Positions 2,264 to 35,635 of a DNA stretch of 35,635 bases are shown in pieces; position 1 is the first letter of the stretch; every line of letters begins with the position of its first letter. The stretch is taken from NCBI RefSeq assembly GCF_001436775.1, contig NZ_AYZC01000013.1, positions 1 to 35,635 on the forward strand, written 5' to 3'. The notes beneath the pieces are model-generated. The model was not told the origin of the DNA. It did no database searches and was given only the letters and a program-made list of their open reading frames with translations. The stretch is from Lactobacillus acetotolerans DSM 20749 = JCM 3825 (lineage in GTDB: Bacteria; Bacillota; Bacilli; Lactobacillales; Lactobacillaceae). Position numbers and translations under genes: made by a program.

Positions 2264-3061
2264 ATGAAACAACGTGTAATTACAGCAGTTATCGCTTTAA
2301 TTTTGTTTATTCCAATTGTCCTTTTAGGTGGACTTTGGATGGATTGGCTGACGGTCGCATTTGCTGTGGTCGGAATCAGTGAAATTTTCTTGATGAAAAA
2401 GCAAATTCTAATTTCAGTAGACTTTGTTTTAGCATTATTAGCAACTTTAACTTGTGTCGTACCAGATGCATTCTTTAAGAACATGCCTTGGCACTGGACT
2501 AAATTCGGTGTTTATTTTGCAATCATTATGTTAATGCTGACCTGGACTGTTCTTTCAAAGAATAAGACGACCTTTGCTGATGTCGGAGTCTATGCACTTG
2601 CAGCACTTTACATTGGTACCGGCTTTCACTATATGGCCGCAATTCGAAGCGATACAAATGGCTTAGCACTTCTTTGCTACGTCTTTGTTGTCGTATGGCT
2701 CACCGATACGGGTGCCTACATGATTGGCCGTAAGATCGGTAAGCATAAGTTATGGCCGGTCATCAGTCCGAATAAAACCTGGGAAGGTTCAATCGGTGGT
2801 ACAATTTGTGCTGTTATCTGTGCTGCCATTTACGTCATGTTTGTTGACGTAGGCTACCCACAGTTACAAATGATTATATTTGCATTCTTCCTTTCAATCG
2901 TGGGACAAATGGGTGATTTGGTTGAGTCTGCTTATAAACGTTTCTATGGTGTCAAAGATTCTGGTAAAATTTTACCGGGACACGGTGGCATTTTAGATCG
3001 CTTTGATAGCATGCTCTTCGTTTTGCCAGTTGTCGCTGCCTTGTTAGGTATAGTACACTAG
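2264..3061 (+). CDS. cdsA: Phosphatidate cytidylyltransferase
   Basis: CdsA makes CDP-diacylglycerol from CTP and phosphatidic acid in the membrane, the branch-point precursor for phosphatidylglycerol and cardiolipin. The 265-residue protein is almost entirely hydrophobic helices. The family signature is near the C-terminus: KR, KD, then PGHGG and DRFD, with His240 and Asp245 visible. SPNKTWEGSIGG in the middle is also typical. It follows uppS by 9 bases. The cardiolipin synthase found at 28435-29919 would use phosphatidylglycerol that derives from this product. Confidence 0.95.
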   Translation: MKQRVITAVIALILFIPIVLLGGLWMDWLTVAFAVVGISEIFLMKKQILISVDFVLALLATLTCVVPDAFFKNMPWHWTKFGVYFAIIMLMLTWTVLSKNKTTFADVGVYALAALYIGTGFHYMAAIRSDTNGLALLCYVFVVVWLTDTGAYMIGRKIGKHKLWPVISPNKTWEGSIGGTICAVICAAIYVMFVDVGYPQLQMIIFAFFLSIVGQMGDLVESAYKRFYGVKDSGKILPGHGGILDRFDSMLFVLPVVAALLGIVH

Positions 3062-3071
3062 GAGATTTTCA

Positions 3072-4328
3072 TTGAAGGGTATACTGATCTTTTTAGTTGT
3101 ATTCGGATTACTCGTATTTGTTCATGAATTTGGGCATTTTATTGTAGCTAAAAAATCCGGTATTCTTGTTCGAGAATTTTCAATTGGGATGGGGCCCAAA
3201 CTCTTTCAAATTAGACGTAATCCTACTACGTACACTATTCGCTGGTTACCACTTGGTGGTTATGTGCGTTTGGCAGGTGCTGATGATGAAAGTAAATTAG
3301 ACCCAGGTATGACTGTAGTTCTGCAATTAAACGACAAAAATGAAGTTGTTAGAATTGATGCTTCAGAATTTGATATGCCAATTGAAGGAATTCCCGTTCA
3401 AGTTACCAAAGCTGATTTAGTCGATTCGTTGGTAATCAATGGCTATGAAAATGGTGACGAAGAAAAACCTGTTAGCTATCATGTTAACCACGATGCAACT
3501 ATTATTGATAAAAATAAAACAGAATTAATCATTGCTCCGCGTGATACCCAGTTCCAACAGGCAAATGTTTGGCAGAAGTTAGCAACTAATTTTGCTGGAC
3601 CTCTTATGAACATTATTTTGGGTTTCGTAGTTTTTTTAATTTGGACTTTTACAATTCCTGGTCCGGCAACTACAACTATTGCGAAGGTTGCACCGAATTC
3701 ACCAGCTCAGACCGCAAAGATCGTTAGTGGTGATAAATTTGTTTCGGTTAACGGACATAAAACGAACAGTTTTAATGATGTTTCCGAGCGAATTGCTCAA
3801 AGCAACGGGAAGCCTTTAAGTCTTAAACTTGAAAAAGATGGGCAAACAAGAACTGTTAACGTAAAGCCAACAAAGAAGAAAGTTCAAAAACAAACTTTTT
3901 ACCAAATTGGTGTGCAAGGTCAAAGTGATAATAATCTAGGCGTAAAGTTTAAACGTGGCTGGGATACAGCCGTATCGACCACCGGCCTGATTTTTAATGC
4001 AGTTGGTGGTTTATTTAAGCACTTTAGTTTAAACAAATTAGCAGGTCCTGTTGGTATCTATTCTGAAACTTCGCAAGTTTCGAATATGGGCTTTGTTTAT
4101 ATCTTAGCCTTCTTGGGCATGATTTCTATTAACTTAGGAATTGTTAATATGATTCCTATCCCTGGCCTGGATGGTGGCAAGATATTGCTAAATCTGATTG
4201 AAATAGTTCGCGGCAAGCCAATTTCACAAGATCATGAAGCAATAGCTGAATTGATTGGTTTTGTAATTCTATTGATTTTGATTATTTCAGTTACTGGTAA
4301 TGACATTTATCGTTACTTTATTAAATAA
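3072..4328 (+). CDS. rseP: RIP metalloprotease RseP-like (site-2 protease)
   Basis: Site-2 family intramembrane zinc protease that cleaves transmembrane substrates; in Gram-positives the relatives process anti-sigma factors and leftover signal peptides. The HExxH zinc motif is in the first membrane segment (HEFGH, residues 18-22). The second metal/active-site motif, NMIPIPGLDGG, is at residues 359-369. Between them lies a PDZ domain (about 195-270, VAPNSPAQTAKIVSGD). Three to four membrane segments are evident. The start is TTG at 3072, 8 bases after a GGAG, and gives the expected N-terminus just before the first helix. The substrate in this organism cannot be told from the window. Confidence 0.93.
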   Translation: MKGILIFLVVFGLLVFVHEFGHFIVAKKSGILVREFSIGMGPKLFQIRRNPTTYTIRWLPLGGYVRLAGADDESKLDPGMTVVLQLNDKNEVVRIDASEFDMPIEGIPVQVTKADLVDSLVINGYENGDEEKPVSYHVNHDATIIDKNKTELIIAPRDTQFQQANVWQKLATNFAGPLMNIILGFVVFLIWTFTIPGPATTTIAKVAPNSPAQTAKIVSGDKFVSVNGHKTNSFNDVSERIAQSNGKPLSLKLEKDGQTRTVNVKPTKKKVQKQTFYQIGVQGQSDNNLGVKFKRGWDTAVSTTGLIFNAVGGLFKHFSLNKLAGPVGIYSETSQVSNMGFVYILAFLGMISINLGIVNMIPIPGLDGGKILLNLIEIVRGKPISQDHEAIAELIGFVILLILIISVTGNDIYRYFIK

Positions 4329-27857: not shown

Positions 27858-28379
27858 TTGAAACTTAGACAAGCTACAAAAGCTGATTTTGATCAAATTA
27901 TGGATATATTAAAAGATGGTGCCAACCAATTAGCCGAGCACGGAGTTGATCAATGGCAGGGTGATTACCCGTCTCCAGATCAAGTTAACGAAGATATTGA
28001 AAAAGGTTGGGCTTATTTAGCTATTTCGCAAGACCAGCAAACTGTAGGAGCTATTTCAATTGTTGATGCACCTGATCACTCTTACGATAAGATGAAGGGT
28101 AAATGGTTAAAGGATACTAATAAGTATGTTGTCATTCACCGAGTAGCCATTCATTCCAAACACGCGGGTAATGGTTATGCAACCAAGCTTTTAACTGAAG
28201 TGGTTAATTATATTCGTGATAACCGTAAAGATATAGATTCAATTCGAATAGATACGCATGAAGATAATAAGGCAATGCAGCACCTAATTGATAAGATGGG
28301 GTTCAAACGTGTTGGTTCACTTCACGGTGTGTATTGTTTAGATGAAACTTCTTATGTTTATGAAATGCTTTTACATTAA
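27858..28379 (+). CDS. GNAT-family N-acetyltransferase
   Basis: A 173-residue stand-alone GNAT. The N-terminus LRQATKADFDQIMDIL is the usual beta1-alpha1. The acetyl-CoA pyrophosphate loop is HSKHAGNGYATKLL (about 99-112), and IDTHEDNKAMQHLIDKMGF is the conserved beta5/alpha4 part. The start is TTG after AAAGGAGAG. The substrate is not predictable; close relatives in lactobacilli are annotated only as acetyltransferases. It is monocistronic, with its own promoter and a shared terminator. Confidence 0.88.
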   Translation: MKLRQATKADFDQIMDILKDGANQLAEHGVDQWQGDYPSPDQVNEDIEKGWAYLAISQDQQTVGAISIVDAPDHSYDKMKGKWLKDTNKYVVIHRVAIHSKHAGNGYATKLLTEVVNYIRDNRKDIDSIRIDTHEDNKAMQHLIDKMGFKRVGSLHGVYCLDETSYVYEMLLH

Positions 28380-28393
28380 TTAAAGATAGAAAA

Positions 28394-28427
28394 AAATGGT
28401 TTCCGCTATAGTTGGCAGAAACCATTT
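28394..28427. terminator. Bidirectional terminator between the GNAT gene and cls
   Basis: AAATGGTTTC and GAAACCATTT form a 10-bp stem with a 14-base loop. The minus strand continues into an unbroken T-run, so it is strongest for cls; the plus strand continues TCGTTTT. Confidence 0.8.
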
Positions 28428-28434
28428 CGTTTTA

Positions 28435-29919
28435 TTAAAGTATTGGTGATAACAGCCTTGAGAAGTACTGCTTAAATTTACGCCAATGAGATTGTTCATC
28501 AAAGTACTCATTGGTTAATAAAGTTGATTGCTCTAAATCATCTTCAAAGATTTTCTTTAATTTTTCTGCTAGTTTAGGACTGTAGTTAAATGAGTTAACC
28601 TCAAAATTTAACATATAACTTCTGTAGTCTTGATTAGCTGAACCGACTGAACAAATATTTGAGCCGCTTACCATAGTCTTTGCGTGAATGAAGCCATTGT
28701 TATACTTGTAAACCTTAATTCCGTTAGCAGTTAAATATTTTGCATAATATTCGGTTGCTCGGTATACAAATGGGTGATCCGCCATACATGGAATCATTAT
28801 ACGGACATCGACACTACTTTTAGCGGAAACAATTAAAGCTTCCAAGATAGAAGGTTCAGGAATTAAATATGGTGATTGAATATAAACGTATTTTCGTGCA
28901 CCTGCTATGATTCCTTCATAACCACGCCGAATTGCAAAATTTTGACTATCTGGTCCTGATGCAACAATCTGCATAGCTACTTGATCTTCTGAAGTTGGGC
29001 GCTTGAGTTTAAGTTTATCTAAATTCTTTAAATTATACTTAGGTAAACGAGATTTACGGCAAGAGGTATTCCAATCCATTGCAAAGCGAATTTCCATCAT
29101 TATCGCTGCTTGGCCAACTACTTGAAGGTGGGTATCGCGCCAGTGACCAAACTTTTTTGATTTGTCAACGTATTGGTCACCAATGTTAAAACCACCGATG
29201 TAACCAATTTTATGATCAATAATAACTAGTTTACGGTGCAAATGATAATTTAACCGAGGAGTTCTGAACCAATATTTGCTTGAAGTTGAAATAAAAGTTT
29301 GTACCTCACCGCCTAATTTGCGTAGATTATTGAAATAAGAGGGCTTAGTACCTAAAGAGCCGCTTGCGTCATAGATTACCCTGACTTTAACACCGCGTCG
29401 TGCTGCGCCTTCTAAAGCTTTTAAAACATGGTTACCTAAATCATCGGAATAGAAAGTGTAAAATTCAACATTGATAGATTCCTTAGCATTATTGATTTTT
29501 TCAATTATGTCTTTAAATAATTTTGTCCCGTCTATAAAAATTTTTACATTATTATCAAAGGTAATGAAGGCACTATCAGTATTTAAATTTAAAGTCGTTA
29601 ACATCCGTGCACGTTCAGATTTTTCCTTTTCTGGCAGCATGTCGTATTGCTTTAGCATTTCTTGCTGCTTGGTTAGATACTGATCCTGAATTTTCTTTTG
29701 TTCATTTTGAATGGCAAAAATATCATCGTGCGAAATTTGCCTGCCTAAAAACAGGTAAATAAGAAATCCAATATATGGGATACCAATTAGGACCAAAAGC
29801 CATGCCCACGTGGAAGCAATGTCGCGGTGACTACGAAAAACTGTCCAACCAGCCAGAACGATATCAATTAGCCATAAGATTTCAATTATTTTGCGGATGA
29901 TGTTCCAATCCCAAACCAT
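28435..29919 (-). CDS. cls: Cardiolipin synthase (PLD superfamily) with a changed second HKD motif
   Basis: Joins two phosphatidylglycerol molecules into cardiolipin at the membrane. Two N-terminal membrane segments (about residues 8-28 and 38-58) are followed by two phospholipase D domains. The first HKD is intact: His228, Lys230 and Asp235 in HRKLVIID. The second reads HAKTMVSGSN: His412 and Lys414 are present, but the Asp position is Gly419; the downstream SVGSANQDYRS is normal. The length of 494 is typical. The ATG follows AAGGAG, and TGCTAGAAT on the minus strand (29951-29959) is a likely extended -10. It could also be a PLD-family paralog with a different head-group preference. Confidence 0.88.
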   Translation of the reverse strand: MVWDWNIIRKIIEILWLIDIVLAGWTVFRSHRDIASTWAWLLVLIGIPYIGFLIYLFLGRQISHDDIFAIQNEQKKIQDQYLTKQQEMLKQYDMLPEKEKSERARMLTTLNLNTDSAFITFDNNVKIFIDGTKLFKDIIEKINNAKESINVEFYTFYSDDLGNHVLKALEGAARRGVKVRVIYDASGSLGTKPSYFNNLRKLGGEVQTFISTSSKYWFRTPRLNYHLHRKLVIIDHKIGYIGGFNIGDQYVDKSKKFGHWRDTHLQVVGQAAIMMEIRFAMDWNTSCRKSRLPKYNLKNLDKLKLKRPTSEDQVAMQIVASGPDSQNFAIRRGYEGIIAGARKYVYIQSPYLIPEPSILEALIVSAKSSVDVRIMIPCMADHPFVYRATEYYAKYLTANGIKVYKYNNGFIHAKTMVSGSNICSVGSANQDYRSYMLNFEVNSFNYSPKLAEKLKKIFEDDLEQSTLLTNEYFDEQSHWRKFKQYFSRLLSPIL

Positions 29920-29950
29920 TATTTTTCTCCTTTGATAGTTACTAATAGCT

Positions 29951-29959
29951 ATTCTAGCA
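29951..29959 (-). promoter_or_regulatory. Extended -10 promoter of cls
   Basis: Minus strand TGCTAGAAT. The -35 region (TCTTTT at 29974-29979) is poor and overlaps the terminator of the upstream ATPase gene. Confidence 0.42.
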
Positions 29960-29972
29960 GATTTATCCAGAA

Positions 29973-30005
29973 AAAAAGAAGCCGAATTTAATTCGGTTTC
30001 TTTTT
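29973..30005 (-). terminator. Terminator after the P-type ATPase gene
   Basis: A 15-bp stem (AAAAAGAAGCCGAAT with ATTCGGTTTCTTTTT, one G-T pair) with a three-base loop. The minus strand continues into T, so it ends transcription of the ATPase before the cls promoter. Confidence 0.88.
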
Positions 30006-30022
30006 ACTATTATTATCTTTAT

Positions 30023-32296
30023 TTATCTGTTCTTCATAATTGGTTGGTAGAATAAATCAATTATGTTAGCAGCAGCTAAGGCAATAACTACTGTAATTAG
30101 TAGGTTAGCCCAGGAAATTTGGGTCATGGCTAAGCCAAACAGTGCCAATATGAAGGTTAAGACAACGTCTGCAATTTGAACCATGCCGACTAATTTAGCT
30201 GGGTGATCTTGCCAGAAGTATTTCTTGGTTCTGGTAATGAGAACGATCAACATAGCACTTAATACTAAGTAAACATAGACCATAGTTGAAATTGTTCCGT
30301 GTCCCCAGTTGTGCGTGTTGAGGTAGTAAATAAATCCAATTCCAATAACTGTCCAACCAGCAGCTAGTGAAAAGGCAATTTTGGCGAGTTTTGCCATGTT
30401 CCAATTCTCTGGCTTATAAGTAATATGGGTTCGGTCGGTACCGATCATCATGGTAACCATGTTGTTCATAATGGTGTAAATAACCATAGCGTTTAATGCC
30501 ATAGGGATGTAGTTGAAGAAGAGGTATCCAAAAGTTAAAAGCATGGTCAATTCAGCCGTTCTAGCTAATTTAGTCAATGACCAGGTTGTCATTCTTTGAT
30601 AAACTCGGTGGCCAGCATCCAAAATTTTGACAATTGAGGTTAAGCCATCATTAAGCAAGACCATTTTACCAGATCGTTTAGCAACATCGGCGGCATTTGA
30701 TACGGCAATCCCAACTTCGGCTTGTTTCAATGCAGGAGAGTCATTAACACCATCACCAGTCATACCAACGATGTAACCTTTCTTCTGGAAGAATTTGACC
30801 ATCCGTAGTTTATCTTCTGGTAAAACGTCAGCAATTCCAGCTAATTTAGTAATGTCAGTATTTTCATTAAAGTCGTGAATGGAAATAACGTTGCCCTTTA
30901 AGTCGACTTGTTTAGCCACAGAAGCAGCGGTTCGTTGGTTGTCACCCGTTAACATGATTGGGCGCACACCGCGCTTTTTAAGTTCGGCTAAGGCTGCCTT
31001 AGAATCTTTACGAACCTTATCTTGTAAAATAAATACACCAGCCAGTTTATTATCAATTAAAAGGGCAACAGAACGTCCGGCTCCGAAGTCGACGTCTTGT
31101 ACTTTTTGGTTAGCGTCTTCATCAATTAATGAAAGTTGCTTGAAAGAACCGAGTTTTACGTTATGTCCGTCAACGTCGGCCATGGAATAACCTGTGGCTG
31201 AAGTGAAGGGGGTAAAATCATCACCAGTTTTAATCGGTAAACCTTTTGCGGTTACATAATCATCAATTGCAGTATCAATGATTTTCTTATTTCTCTGATC
31301 GATTGCTGCACTGGCAAACTCTAATACTTGATCATTATTTAAACTGCTAAAATTTGTCCAGTGGGCGACTGCAGTCTTATTTTCAGTGATAGTGCCGGTC
31401 TTATCCAACAAAATTAGGTTTAAGTTGGCTGCGTCTTGAATACCAGTCAGATCTGAAGTTAAAACGCCTTGTTTACTTAATCTGGTTGCCTCAAAGGAGT
31501 TAGATAGGGCGAAAGTTGAAGGCATTGCAACTGGGATAGAAGCAATAAACATCATGGCCAGGAATGGCAGCATATTGACCAACGTATTGAGATTGCCACC
31601 CTTGAAGAATGAGGCAATGATGATTACAAGGGTCAAAATACCATCAAGTATACAGAGGTAATAGATGATTTTGGTTAACAGTTGTTGTAAATGACCTGGA
31701 GCGGCAGATTTGTTGATTAAATTAATAGTCTTACCGGATCGTGAATCAGCACCTGTGGCGGTGACGACAGCTAAGCCTGAGCCTTCCATTACGGTAGTCC
31801 CGGCGTAAGCTTTGTCATTGACACTCTTTTTAACGGTTTTAGCTTCACCAGTGATTGAACTTTCATCGAATGAAAGCTGTCCACTAATTATTTTAGTATC
31901 GGCTGATAAAACATCCCCAGCCTGGATACTAATTAAGTCGCCAACAACCAAATATTTTGAATCGATTGTTGTCCACTTGTCGTCTCGTTCGACTGAAACA
32001 GTAGGGGTCAATTTGTGCGAGATATTATTTAAAACTCGCCGTGATTGCTTTTTCTTGGAAGCACCATTCCATGCAGCGAATAAAAGCATTAGCAACACGA
32101 ATAGTGACTGGATCCATTTACCCAGAATACATTCTAAAAGCAGGGCAGCTTCTAGAATCCATGCGGATAAATTCCATAATTTAGATAAGAATTCTTTAAA
32201 GAAATTGAATTTTGGTTCTGGAACCTCATTCAAGCCGTTTTTCTTAAGGAGTTTATCTGCTTCGGCTTGTGTCAAGCCATGAAATTTTTCAGACAT
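30023..32296 (-). CDS. P-type ATPase of the P3A (plasma-membrane H+-ATPase-like) group, ion uncertain
   Basis: Membrane cation pump of 757 residues from the ATG at 32294-32296, which follows AAGGAAAA. An in-frame start at 32407 would add 37 residues from within the eno terminator and is rejected. The N-terminus (GLTQAEADKLLKKNGLNEVPE) and overall layout resemble H+-ATPases. Visible motifs: TGEAKTV, M4 PVAMP, phosphorylation site DKTGT (Asp298), MLTGDN, and GDGVNDSPALKQAEVGIAV. In M6, IMNNMVTMM carries Asn611-Asn612 where plant AHA2 has Asn-Asp684. The M5 position of AHA2 Arg655 aligns with Glu582. The ion may therefore not be H+. A Mn2+/Cd2+ P-type ATPase (MntA) has been described in L. plantarum; orthology is untested. 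Confidence 0.85.
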   Translation of the reverse strand: MSEKFHGLTQAEADKLLKKNGLNEVPEPKFNFFKEFLSKLWNLSAWILEAALLLECILGKWIQSLFVLLMLLFAAWNGASKKKQSRRVLNNISHKLTPTVSVERDDKWTTIDSKYLVVGDLISIQAGDVLSADTKIISGQLSFDESSITGEAKTVKKSVNDKAYAGTTVMEGSGLAVVTATGADSRSGKTINLINKSAAPGHLQQLLTKIIYYLCILDGILTLVIIIASFFKGGNLNTLVNMLPFLAMMFIASIPVAMPSTFALSNSFEATRLSKQGVLTSDLTGIQDAANLNLILLDKTGTITENKTAVAHWTNFSSLNNDQVLEFASAAIDQRNKKIIDTAIDDYVTAKGLPIKTGDDFTPFTSATGYSMADVDGHNVKLGSFKQLSLIDEDANQKVQDVDFGAGRSVALLIDNKLAGVFILQDKVRKDSKAALAELKKRGVRPIMLTGDNQRTAASVAKQVDLKGNVISIHDFNENTDITKLAGIADVLPEDKLRMVKFFQKKGYIVGMTGDGVNDSPALKQAEVGIAVSNAADVAKRSGKMVLLNDGLTSIVKILDAGHRVYQRMTTWSLTKLARTAELTMLLTFGYLFFNYIPMALNAMVIYTIMNNMVTMMIGTDRTHITYKPENWNMAKLAKIAFSLAAGWTVIGIGFIYYLNTHNWGHGTISTMVYVYLVLSAMLIVLITRTKKYFWQDHPAKLVGMVQIADVVLTFILALFGLAMTQISWANLLITVVIALAAANIIDLFYQPIMKNR

Positions 32297-32394
32297 AATT
32301 TTCCTTCTTTTCATAATTAATACATTATCTAAACTAGCATAATTATGCCATAGTTGAAAATTTTTTATTAGGTTAAAGAAAAAAATAAACAAAA

Positions 32395-32424
32395 AATAAG
32401 CTTGCAAAACTGCAAGCTTATTTT
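32395..32424 (-). terminator. Terminator after eno
   Basis: A perfect 12-bp stem, AATAAGCTTGCA with TGCAAGCTTATT, and a four-base loop. On the minus strand it runs into a long T-rich tail. Confidence 0.9.
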
Positions 32425-32445
32425 AAATCGAATTAACTAACTTAA

Positions 32446-33732
32446 TTAGTCTTTGTCAATGCTGTCTGGGAATGTAGCGATGTGCTCACCCTTGCCAAGT
32501 TCACTTTCAATTTCAAGCAAACGGTTGTACTTTTCAACACGTTCTGAACGTGCAGGAGCACCAGCCTTTAATTGGCCACCCTTTACAGCAACAGCGAAGT
32601 CACTTAAGAAGGTGTCACCAGTTTCACCTGAACGGTGAGAAATCATGGTGTTGTAGCCATTCTTACGTGAAAGACGAACTGTTTCAAGAGTTTCACTAAC
32701 AGTACCGATTTGGTTCAACTTGATTAATGCGGCGTTACCTGCACCTTCCTTGATAGCCTTAGCTAAAAGCTTTGGGTTAGTACAAATGAAGTCATCCAAA
32801 ACAATTTGAATCTTGTCTTTGTGGCTCTTAGTGAATTTAACCATACCATCGATATCGTTTTCGTCATATGGGTCTTCGATAGAAATTATTTCTGGGAATT
32901 CCTTGAATAACTTGTCGTAGTAATCTGATAATTGTTGATCATCAAGAACTTTACCTTCAAAGTGATACTTCTTGTCATCTTTGTTGTAGAAGTAAGAAGC
33001 AGCACAGTCAAAGGCAATAGCGATATCTTTGCCTGGCTTGTAACCAGCTTTAACAATAGCTTCGTGTAAAGCCTTTAAAGCTTCTTCGGAACTCTTCAAG
33101 TTAGGAGCGAAACCACCTTCGTCACCTAAACCAGTTTCAAAGCCCATACCTTCAAGAACTTTCTTCAAGGTGTGGTAAGTGTTAACGATCTTTTCGAAAC
33201 CGTCACGGAATGAAGTCTTGTTAACTGGGGTGATCATAAACTCTTGAACATCGATACCGTTGTCGGCGTGTTCACCACCATTGATAACATTGTGGAATGT
33301 TTGTGGCATTTCAATGTCAGTACCACCAAGGTATCTGTATAATGGTTCATGACTGTCTTTAGCTGCAGCAACAGCAACGGCCATAGATACACCTAAGATA
33401 GCATTAGCACCAAGCTTAGCTTTGTTAGGGGTACCGTCTAAGTCGATCATAGTTTGGTCGATCTTAGCTTGATCGTGTGGGTCCATACCCTTTAAAGCTT
33501 TAGCAATCTTAGTGTTAACGTTGTTAACAGCTTTGGTAACGCCTTTACCACCAAGACGCTTACCACCGTCACGTAATTCAACGGCTTCGTTTTCACCAGT
33601 TGAAGCACCAGATGGAACTTCAGCCTTGCCTACGATACCGTTTGAAAGGGTAACGAAAGCTTCAACAGTTGGGTTGCCACGTGAATCAAAGATTTCAAGT
33701 GCATGAATATTTTCAATGACTGATTTTAACAT
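32446..33732 (-). CDS. eno: Enolase
   Basis: Glycolytic enzyme converting 2-phosphoglycerate to phosphoenolpyruvate. I start at the ATG read on the minus strand from 33732 (MLKSVIENIHALEIFDSRGNPT), 428 residues, preceded by TAGGAGG. The substrate and Mg2+ residues are in GDEGGFAPN, SIEDPYDEND and DDFICTN; the catalytic lysine is in ALIKLNQIGT; SHRSGETGD is also present. An upstream in-frame start at 33804 lies inside the leader hairpin and is rejected. The gene is monocistronic with a structured leader of about 80 bases, as expected for a very highly expressed gene. Confidence 0.97.
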   Translation of the reverse strand: MLKSVIENIHALEIFDSRGNPTVEAFVTLSNGIVGKAEVPSGASTGENEAVELRDGGKRLGGKGVTKAVNNVNTKIAKALKGMDPHDQAKIDQTMIDLDGTPNKAKLGANAILGVSMAVAVAAAKDSHEPLYRYLGGTDIEMPQTFHNVINGGEHADNGIDVQEFMITPVNKTSFRDGFEKIVNTYHTLKKVLEGMGFETGLGDEGGFAPNLKSSEEALKALHEAIVKAGYKPGKDIAIAFDCAASYFYNKDDKKYHFEGKVLDDQQLSDYYDKLFKEFPEIISIEDPYDENDIDGMVKFTKSHKDKIQIVLDDFICTNPKLLAKAIKEGAGNAALIKLNQIGTVSETLETVRLSRKNGYNTMISHRSGETGDTFLSDFAVAVKGGQLKAGAPARSERVEKYNRLLEIESELGKGEHIATFPDSIDKD

Positions 33733-33755
33733 CAAAAAACCTCCTAAAAAATTAT

Positions 33756-33785
33756 GATGTTGTACCGAATTAATGTACGAACATC
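33756..33785 (-). other. Leader stem-loop 2 of eno mRNA
   Basis: A stem of 10 bp with one bulged base: plus-strand arms GATGTTGTAC (33756-33765) and GTAC-G-AACATC (33775-33785) around a nine-base loop. In the mRNA it is followed by ATAA and six U, then the ribosome binding site. Confidence 0.6.
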
Positions 33786-33786
33786 G

Positions 33787-33804
33787 TTGGAGCATTTGCT
33801 CCAA
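33787..33804 (-). other. Leader stem-loop 1 of eno mRNA (near the 5' end)
   Basis: A perfect 7-bp stem TTGGAGC/GCTCCAA with a four-base loop. It starts about 8 bases from the predicted 5' end of the mRNA. Confidence 0.65.
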
Positions 33805-33818
33805 TCTCTACAAATCAA

Positions 33819-33847
33819 ATTTTAGCCTAACTTTGTGATGGTGTAAA
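33819..33847 (-). promoter_or_regulatory. Promoter of eno
   Basis: On the minus strand: TTTACA (33842-33847), a 17-base spacer and TAAAAT (33819-33824). The predicted start site is near 33812. Confidence 0.75.
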
Positions 33848-33866
33848 CATATGAAAGCGGTTTACA
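33842..33866. promoter_or_regulatory. Inverted repeat TGTAAAC-N11-GTTTACA with a cre-like right part
   Basis: The two 7-base arms are exact inverted copies. The left arm contains the eno -35 box. TGAAAGCGGTTTACA (33852-33866) resembles the catabolite-responsive element with one extra base. Confidence 0.5.
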
Positions 33867-33882
33867 TGATTAAAAAGTTATT

Positions 33883-34467
33883 TTAGATGATTGCCAAAAA
33901 AATTTGTTGTGAAATACTAAAGCAGAGAATTGCTAGACTCGCTGCACCAATAACGTCTGATGGGTAATGTGCCCGTAAACTTAACCTTGAGACAATTACC
34001 ATGACCCAAATGACACCAAGAAGAATGATGAAGCTCAAACCTAATTTTTTACCAAAAAGTTGCAAAAGAATTAACGCCATGGTTGTGGCACCTAGAACGT
34101 GTCCACTTGGGAAGCTATAACCACTTTCTAAATCTGAGTGTTCGAAAGGACGTCTTCTATGGATAGTTCTTTTTAAAATAATTCCTGTGGCGTCAGCAAA
34201 TCCCAAGGTTGCCAAAACCCATAAAGCTGTAATATTTTTCTCTTCATTAATTAAAAATGCAGCTAGAAGTACAGCCCAAACTACCATTAACTTAGGATCA
34301 TTTAAAAAGGCGATTACTTGCCAGCTAAAGCCATCATGATTACGGATCAATTTGTGGTGTAGCCAACGATCGTAAAGATTAAAGCGGCGAGAATTTTTAA
34401 TGTTAATGATGAGTAGTAACAAAATGATTGCAGAGCTAAGCACTACAACCCAATTATTTATTCTCAC
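33883..34467 (-). CDS. PAP2-family membrane phosphatase
   Basis: A 194-residue protein with about five to six hydrophobic helices and the three-part PAP2 motif: KRTIHRRRP, PSGH and SRLSLRAHYPSD. Such enzymes dephosphorylate lipid phosphates such as phosphatidic acid, phosphatidylglycerophosphate or undecaprenyl diphosphate; the substrate here cannot be assigned. The start is GTG, read on the minus strand from 34467, with AGGGAC upstream. No terminator is seen between it and the eno promoter. TGCTAAAAT on the minus strand about 50 bases upstream may be its -10. Confidence 0.87.
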   Translation of the reverse strand: MRINNWVVVLSSAIILLLLIINIKNSRRFNLYDRWLHHKLIRNHDGFSWQVIAFLNDPKLMVVWAVLLAAFLINEEKNITALWVLATLGFADATGIILKRTIHRRRPFEHSDLESGYSFPSGHVLGATTMALILLQLFGKKLGLSFIILLGVIWVMVIVSRLSLRAHYPSDVIGAASLAILCFSISQQIFLAII

Positions 34468-34582
34468 AATTAAGTCCCTGCCTATAAAATAAACATTTCA
34501 TAAGCTATTTTAGCAGGAAAGGTGAGTCACAATAGTTTTCTTGTCTAAAACTTAACAAATTTAATTGTTTTTAAAGAAGTAC

Positions 34583-34609
34583 TTGTTATGTATTGAATTA
34601 AAATATAAT
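34583..34609 (+). promoter_or_regulatory. Promoter-like sequence touching the start codon of the zinc-ribbon gene
   Basis: TTGTTA (34583-34588), a 15-base spacer and TATAAT (34604-34609), one base before the ATG at 34611. No Shine-Dalgarno sequence is present. If used, the mRNA would begin after or at the ATG. Confidence 0.35.
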
Positions 34610-34610
34610 T

Positions 34611-35612
34611 ATGAAACGTTTAACCAATGATAAATTCATAAAAAAAGTAAATTATATTCAACACGATCAATATAAAATTTTAAGTAAATATAGGAATGAA
34701 TATGCAAAAATTACAGTAAAGTGTAAAAAATGTGGTCGTAAATTTGATGAAACTGCTAAAACTTTAATGACCTATCATATTGGTAAGAACTGTTACCATC
34801 ATATTAATGGTAATCAAGAAAGTGTAGCGAATAGGATATTTAAAGAAAGTAAAGGTACTATTATTATGATTGGTAAATATAATGGTGCTAAGAATAAAAC
34901 TGAAATGCAATGTAAAGTGTGTAACTATAAATGGTCAACTGAACCTTATGTTGTATATAAAGGACATGGTTGTCCGCAATGTAGCGGGAAAGCTAAAATT
35001 ACTACTATCAGTTTTAAAAAATATCTTAATAGATATGCGAAAGATTATAAATTAATTGGTTTAGTAATTTCTTCTAAAAAGAAAGTAAAAATATTACATA
35101 AAGAATGTGGTAATTTATTTTATATGACTCCTCATAATTTTATAGTGTCTGAAGAACGCTGCCCCTATAGTGCATCTAAGCGAAGAGGAGATTCTAATGC
35201 CTATTCGTTTAAAAAAATGAATCAAATTTTAAAATTAACAACTGGAAATAGGTATAAAGTTAGTTCGCATTACACCAGGGCTAGTAAAAAAGCTGTATGT
35301 TTTGATAATAAATGTAAACGACATTTTATTTCAATACCAAGTATGCTTTCAAGAAATGAAACTGGTTGCCCATTTTGTGCAACATCTAAAGGAGAAAAAG
35401 CTATTCGCATATATCTTATTGATCATCGTGTTTCTTTTAAAGAACAGGTTAAATTTAGTAATTGCAGAAATAAACGTTCTTTACCTTTTGATTTTGCTGT
35501 TTATAAAAATAATAAATTATTATATCTTATAGAATTTCAAGGGATTCAACATTATAAACATATTGAATTATTCGATAAAACTAAGTGTAAAATAGTTTGC
35601 GGTAACGTTTAA
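34611..35612 (+). CDS. Multi-zinc-ribbon protein with a truncated nuclease-like C-terminus
   Basis: A 333-residue basic, AT-rich gene. Four modules of about 65 residues each end in a zinc-ribbon pattern: C38/C41 with C61/H64; C101/C104 with C121/C124; H163/C166 with C184/S187 (a Cys appears lost); C230/C235 with C253/C256. The last part (about 260-333) resembles Vsr/EDxHD-type nuclease domains found on phage and mobile proteins: GEKAI (E262), LPFDFAV (D294) and LIEFQGIQHY (E308, H314). Relatives normally continue with a further strand and helix of about 40 residues; here the gene stops 18 residues after QHY. No ribosome binding site is visible. It is probably an acquired, decaying gene. Confidence 0.7.
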   Translation: MKRLTNDKFIKKVNYIQHDQYKILSKYRNEYAKITVKCKKCGRKFDETAKTLMTYHIGKNCYHHINGNQESVANRIFKESKGTIIMIGKYNGAKNKTEMQCKVCNYKWSTEPYVVYKGHGCPQCSGKAKITTISFKKYLNRYAKDYKLIGLVISSKKKVKILHKECGNLFYMTPHNFIVSEERCPYSASKRRGDSNAYSFKKMNQILKLTTGNRYKVSSHYTRASKKAVCFDNKCKRHFISIPSMLSRNETGCPFCATSKGEKAIRIYLIDHRVSFKEQVKFSNCRNKRSLPFDFAVYKNNKLLYLIEFQGIQHYKHIELFDKTKCKIVCGNV

Positions 35613-35623
35613 ATATAAATTAA

Positions 35624-35629
35624 AAGGAG
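35624..35629 (+). promoter_or_regulatory. Ribosome binding site of a gene beyond the window
   Basis: AAGGAG six bases from the end of the window, directly after the zinc-ribbon gene. The last two bases are AT, so an ATG may straddle the edge. The gene itself is not visible. Confidence 0.4.
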
Positions 35630-35635
35630 TCAAAT

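Follow-up and report, generated by a model that had tools for sequence, protein, structure and literature searches.

An Asp-less P3A-like ATPase kept across Lactobacillus and its possible link to a former fluoride-resistance locus

The window, which is the whole stretch of DNA that was analysed, comprises 35,635 nucleotides of Lactobacillus acetotolerans DSM 20749 = JCM 3825 (contig NZ_AYZC01000013.1). As shown in Table 1, it carries a gene for a P3A-like P-type ATPase, called here the window pump, with an enolase gene upstream. A terminator-like hairpin lies between the two genes, and transcription of the pump is therefore probably separate from that of the enolase. The adjacency of enolase and pump was seen in many Lactobacillus species, not all. 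No fluoride riboswitch was found in positions 28000-35635 at E<=1, and no Mn2+ or other metal riboswitch was found beside the pump. Elsewhere in the window, a 333-aa ORF rich in Cys-x-x-Cys pairs was observed on the plus strand at 34611-35612, and its C-terminal part looks endonuclease-like by eye.

Table 1. Coordinates of the features of the enolase-pump locus, in positions of the window
Feature	Position	Strand	Basis or remark
P3A-like P-type ATPase, Asp-less (Asn-Asn) pump, 757 aa	30023..32296	-	open frame, profile score, structure matches
Asn611-Asn612 in M6 (codons AAC AAC), at AHA2 Asn683-Asp684	30461..30466	-	alignment, codon read
Thr608 in M6, a helical turn ahead of Asn612	30473..30475	-	alignment
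Glu582 in M5 (GAA), at AHA2 Arg655 / Pma1 His701	30551..30553	-	alignments
Lys576 in M5, invariant; Arg in P3A rows	30569..30571	-	alignment
DKTGT with phosphorylated Asp298; invariant	31391..31405	-	
PVAMP of M4	31520..31534	-	
Ala74 in M2, at AHA2 Asn106, partner of Asp684	32075..32077	-	alignments
Glu55 in M1, invariant in subfamily; Ser in true P3A rows	32132..32134	-	alignment
Terminator-like hairpin between enolase and pump	32393..32424	-	consensus match only
Enolase gene upstream of pump	32446..33732	-	fluoride-riboswitch enolase lineage; no riboswitch here

The preliminary description had assigned the protein a P3A-like architecture, and this assignment is supported by sequence and fold. 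A phmmer search against solved structures scored highest for the proton pumps Pma1 (248.7 bits) and AHA2 (241 bits), with Ca2+ pumps at about 190. An AlphaFold2 model, built from a shallow alignment and with a mean pLDDT of 73.5, showed ten membrane helices, and Foldseek with this model again returned Pma1 and AHA2 as best. The P-x-x-M/L-P motif of M4, DKTGT and the ten membrane helices expected of P3A pumps are all present, and the catalytic motifs are complete. Against TIGR01647, the NCBIfam P3A equivalog, the protein scored 451.8 bits, which is below the curated cut-off of 615.5. By sequence, the window pump is a complete P-type ATPase that comes nearest to the P3A proton pumps. It fits a fluoride-riboswitch-linked P3A-like subfamily, forming a clade with a plasmid ATPase (L147) and with the Asp-bearing pumps of other Lactobacillaceae, and having Glu55 and the Ala/Ser of position 74. 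True P3A pumps with Asp-Asp in M6 were also observed in addition to window-type pumps in three Lactobacillus genomes (L063-L065), and their TIGR01647 scores of 936-963 are above the cut-off.

The main finding at this locus concerns M6, where Asn611-Asn612 had been described in place of the Asn-Asp684 of AHA2. This placement was borne out: pairwise alignments of Asn612 with AHA2 Asp684 and Pma1 Asp730 were ungapped across M6, and in multiple alignments with P3A pumps Asn612 stood in a column that was Asp in every P3A or P3A-like comparison row outside the Asn/Ser clades. Codons 611 and 612 both read AAC, with neither GAC nor GAT at 30461-30466. In AHA2, Asp684 mutants except D684E hydrolyse ATP but do not pump (PMC5387105). 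The earlier claim that the missing M6 Asp excludes the canonical AHA2 proton mechanism was supported.

A scan of named genomes found 53 orthologous loci, nearly all from Lactobacillus. Asn611 was invariant in the 53 aligned orthologues, and position 612 was Asn in 52 of them (AAT 31, AAC 21) and Ser in one. Because Asn612 was kept in 52/53 with AAT and AAC mixed, though Asp is one base away, it is held by selection, and the 53 orthologues together with the synonymous codon mixing excluded sequencing error or gene decay as the cause. The dN/dS to several relatives was about 0.04-0.07, with dS saturated, and a P3A profile was matched in 41/41 sampled Lactobacillus genomes, although the same profile also matches Ca2+-type pumps. 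All these results showed that the Asn-Asn gene is retained genus-wide in Lactobacillus under strong purifying selection. Two orthologues are possible pseudogenes: one (L107, genome G011) looks truncated, with a 638-aa frame ending after M6, and one from L. gigeriorum (L032) has a stop codon inside the matched span.

We then considered the other membrane residues around this site. Glu582 had been said to match AHA2 Arg655 in an ungapped alignment. The match itself is upheld by the multiple alignment, where a Rhodococcus P3A pump has Arg, and by an ungapped alignment with Pma1 (His), but the pairwise alignment with AHA2 opens a 4-residue gap in M5. Glu582 had also been suggested as a substitute proton carrier, and this idea failed, since position 582 was Glu in 37 and Gln in 16 of the 53 Asp-less orthologues, and Glu and Gln alternate among the Asp-bearing relatives too; a role as general proton carrier is therefore ruled out. 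The AHA2 Asn106 site was Ala or Ser across the whole subfamily, Asp-bearing members included, and Asn in all other P3A or P3A-like rows (L063-L065, L144-L146, L149-L152). All Asp-less pumps had Thr or Ser at position 608, where the Asp-bearing relatives had Ala or Val. AHA2 Arg655 is reported to correspond to Glu771 of SERCA, a Ca2+ ligand, and AHA2 Asp684 to SERCA Asp800 (PMC5387105); by our reading of the spacing, Thr608 would fall on SERCA Asn796. In M1, Glu49 and Glu55 were invariant, and equally so in the Asp-bearing pumps, with Glu55 near the end of a short M1 helix in the AlphaFold2 model. A soft-metal site made by a Met-rich M6 was rejected, as neither the Ser branch nor the second Asn clade has the Met residues.

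The family search covered 301 Lactobacillaceae genomes. Relatives in other Lactobacillaceae genera were 36-54% identical to the window pump, and nearly all had Asn-Asp in M6. A fluoride riboswitch (RF01734) was found upstream, on the same strand and within 1.8 kb, for 29/32 Asp-bearing pumps vs 0/23 Asn/Ser pumps, a contrast between related rows that reflects few independent events. Its Fisher p, 1e-12, takes no account of this relatedness and is not independent evidence. The distance from riboswitch to Asp-bearing pump was mostly 60-150 bases or about 1.4-1.8 kb, and in several cases the order was riboswitch, enolase, pump. Riboswitch scans over 40 genomes were made with stricter filters. Three Asp-bearing pumps had no nearby riboswitch, so loss of the switch is not always paired with loss of the Asp. 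The genome of L. acetotolerans itself has an Asp-bearing paralogue (L205:2607-4959; G000:C102:45106-47458) with 52% identity to the window pump. It lies 77 bp after a fluoride riboswitch that, at 29.2 bits, falls short of the gathering score (34), with its conserved core aligned. The frame of this paralogue is broken near residue 87 into two overlapping frames and is either frameshifted or misassembled.

The tree indicated an ancestral Asp that was replaced by Asn in two clades, that of Lactobacillus and a second one (g10), and by Ser in the branch with L. hominis. The best tree splits the two Asn clades (support 97/92 for g10 with L118), which favoured two independent losses of Asp, although the AU test (p 0.21) did not reject a single origin. 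Both the Lactobacillus Asn clade and g10 are without a riboswitch. Common to the Asp-less pumps are Thr222, Asp288 and Thr608 (replaced by Ser in the Ser branch), and 13 conserved sites were changed in both Asn clades vs 5.2 expected by position; these shared changes may reflect either convergence or common descent. The gene context of g10, over 13 kb, contained no fluoride gene and no other functional hint.

The enolase provides a second line to fluoride. The window enolase groups with riboswitch-linked enolases (100/100) and away from the housekeeping type of other Lactobacillaceae. Its Lactobacillus clade has as sister the second, riboswitch-linked enolase of L. acetotolerans, a genome in which no housekeeping-type enolase was found. 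The most economical account is that both genes of the pair derive from a fluoride operon whose riboswitch has been lost. Near the fluoride-riboswitch enolase, a Na+ riboswitch (RF03071, 50.6 bits) was also seen at L204:2533-2591, directly before a cation:proton antiporter-like gene at 2636-3787.

Taken together, the window pump is probably a P3A-like pump of fluoride stress that lost both its riboswitch and its proton Asp, was kept by selection, and now uses a neutral polar site for another cation. An ancestral enolase-pump pair would have stood behind a fluoride riboswitch, which was lost in the Lactobacillus lineage, as its absence there shows; the M6 Asp of the pump was lost too, by D to N or, in a side branch, to S. 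Cycling through phosphorylation of Asp298 should still occur. The M6 site would be uncharged, made of Thr608, Asn611 and Asn612, and position 582 is occupied by Glu or Gln, so that the AHA2 proton mechanism should be impossible and the cargo is most likely another, probably monovalent, cation. Lys576 is a possible candidate for a built-in counter-ion in such monovalent transport. Judged from sequence, movement of another cation by the window pump is at least possible. The ancestral role, as ascribed here to the Asp-bearing pumps, may have been to remove protons brought in by HF and to rebuild the membrane potential on which fluoride export through Fluc channels depends. Both pH and proton-motive force fall under fluoride (PMC11139923). 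Because of the Ala/Ser at the AHA2 Asn106 site, the Asp-bearing members are only putative proton pumps.

The strongest rival, which we regard as unlikely, is that the protein still pumps protons but binds them at a different membrane carboxylate, the candidates being Glu49 and Glu55 in M1 and Glu582 in M5. The invariance of both M1 glutamates and the fact that the nearest solved structures are proton pumps agree with it, but the M1 glutamates are just as conserved in Asp-bearing relatives and are therefore not compensatory, Glu55 is placed by the model near the end of its short helix, Glu582 gives way to Gln in 16/53, and transport is lost in the published AHA2 Asp684 mutants except D684E (PMC5387105).

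Somewhat less likely still is a divalent-cation transporter like L. plantarum MntA, a P-type ATPase for which uptake of Mn2+ and Cd2+ is reported. MntA may be a member of the window pump's subfamily. Fluoride operons are reported to carry divalent-cation transporters commonly, and Thr608, Asn611, Asn612 and Glu582 stand at SERCA Ca2+-ligand positions if Asp684 equals Asp800 and Arg655 equals Glu771 (PMC5387105). Against this, the sole M6 carboxylate is gone and Gln is tolerated at 582, which would leave a charge-poor site, and no Mn2+ riboswitch accompanies the window pump. An uncoupled or regulatory ATPase without transport, comparable to AHA2 Asp684 mutants that stall in E1P, is very improbable, for although the Asn612 substitution matches those that uncouple AHA2 (PMC5387105), the membrane domain is conserved and not the catalytic core alone, and the Asn/Thr pattern is kept with no drift.

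The loss of riboswitch and Asp under continued selection thus remains our preferred reading. We tentatively suggest, with less confidence than in that reading, that Lactobacillus has a natural equivalent of AHA2 Asp684Asn, which would carry non-H+ cargo through an uncharged Thr/Asn site as part of a domesticated enolase-pump pair from fluoride resistance. Prokaryotic P3A ATPases have been described as having an undetermined transport function (PMC10654040). The family offers a natural experiment, with close pumps that have or lack the proton Asp, the Asp-bearing ones linked to fluoride, and both kinds in one genome; the cargo of an Asp-less P3A-like pump thereby becomes directly testable in ordinary food bacteria. 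The results also suggest that the enolase beside the Lactobacillus pump came from a fluoride-resistance operon.

Compared with known systems, the window pump shares with the P3A H+-ATPases AHA2 and Pma1 the domain order, the PVAMP of M4, DKTGT and the M5-M6 alignment, whereas the M6 Asp, the M2 Asn and the C-terminal regulatory extension are all absent from it, and window-type pumps have Glu/Gln at the M5 site where AHA2 and Pma1 have Arg/His. The Asp-bearing Lactobacillaceae pumps (among L108-L141, and the own-genome paralogue L002) have the same motifs as the window pump and often eno between riboswitch and pump, but differ by Asp at 612, Ala/Val at 608, Pro at 43 and the riboswitch found in 29/32. 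MntA resembles the window pump as a P-type ATPase from Lactobacillaceae, a comparison made by reported function alone.

More distant relatives were found on plasmids of Enterobacteriaceae, in a ppaC-uspA-eno-gpmA-crcB-ATPase island whose gene order matches that of the Enterobacter cloacae FRM operon for fluoride resistance. The last gene of that operon, annotated as a 'divalent cation transporting ATPase', is up 15-fold with fluoride (PMC5533749). From gene order, not sequence, we infer that this ATPase (orf5249) corresponds to L147. The plasmid ATPases (L147, L148) are like the window pump in their 34-35% identity, the wider subfamily, the Glu in M1 and an island with eno; they have Ser in place of Asn106 and keep Asn-Asp in M6. 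On the conjugative Klebsiella plasmid (L147:1-10193), two MutS-like genes and an antiporter were also seen beside the ATPase in the fluoride-resistance-like island. Unlike the window locus, the published E. cloacae FRM operon has a fluoride riboswitch and crcB. Fluoride-linked P-type ATPases are thus already known in Enterobacter, and the Lactobacillus branch, with neither Asp nor riboswitch, appears to be new.
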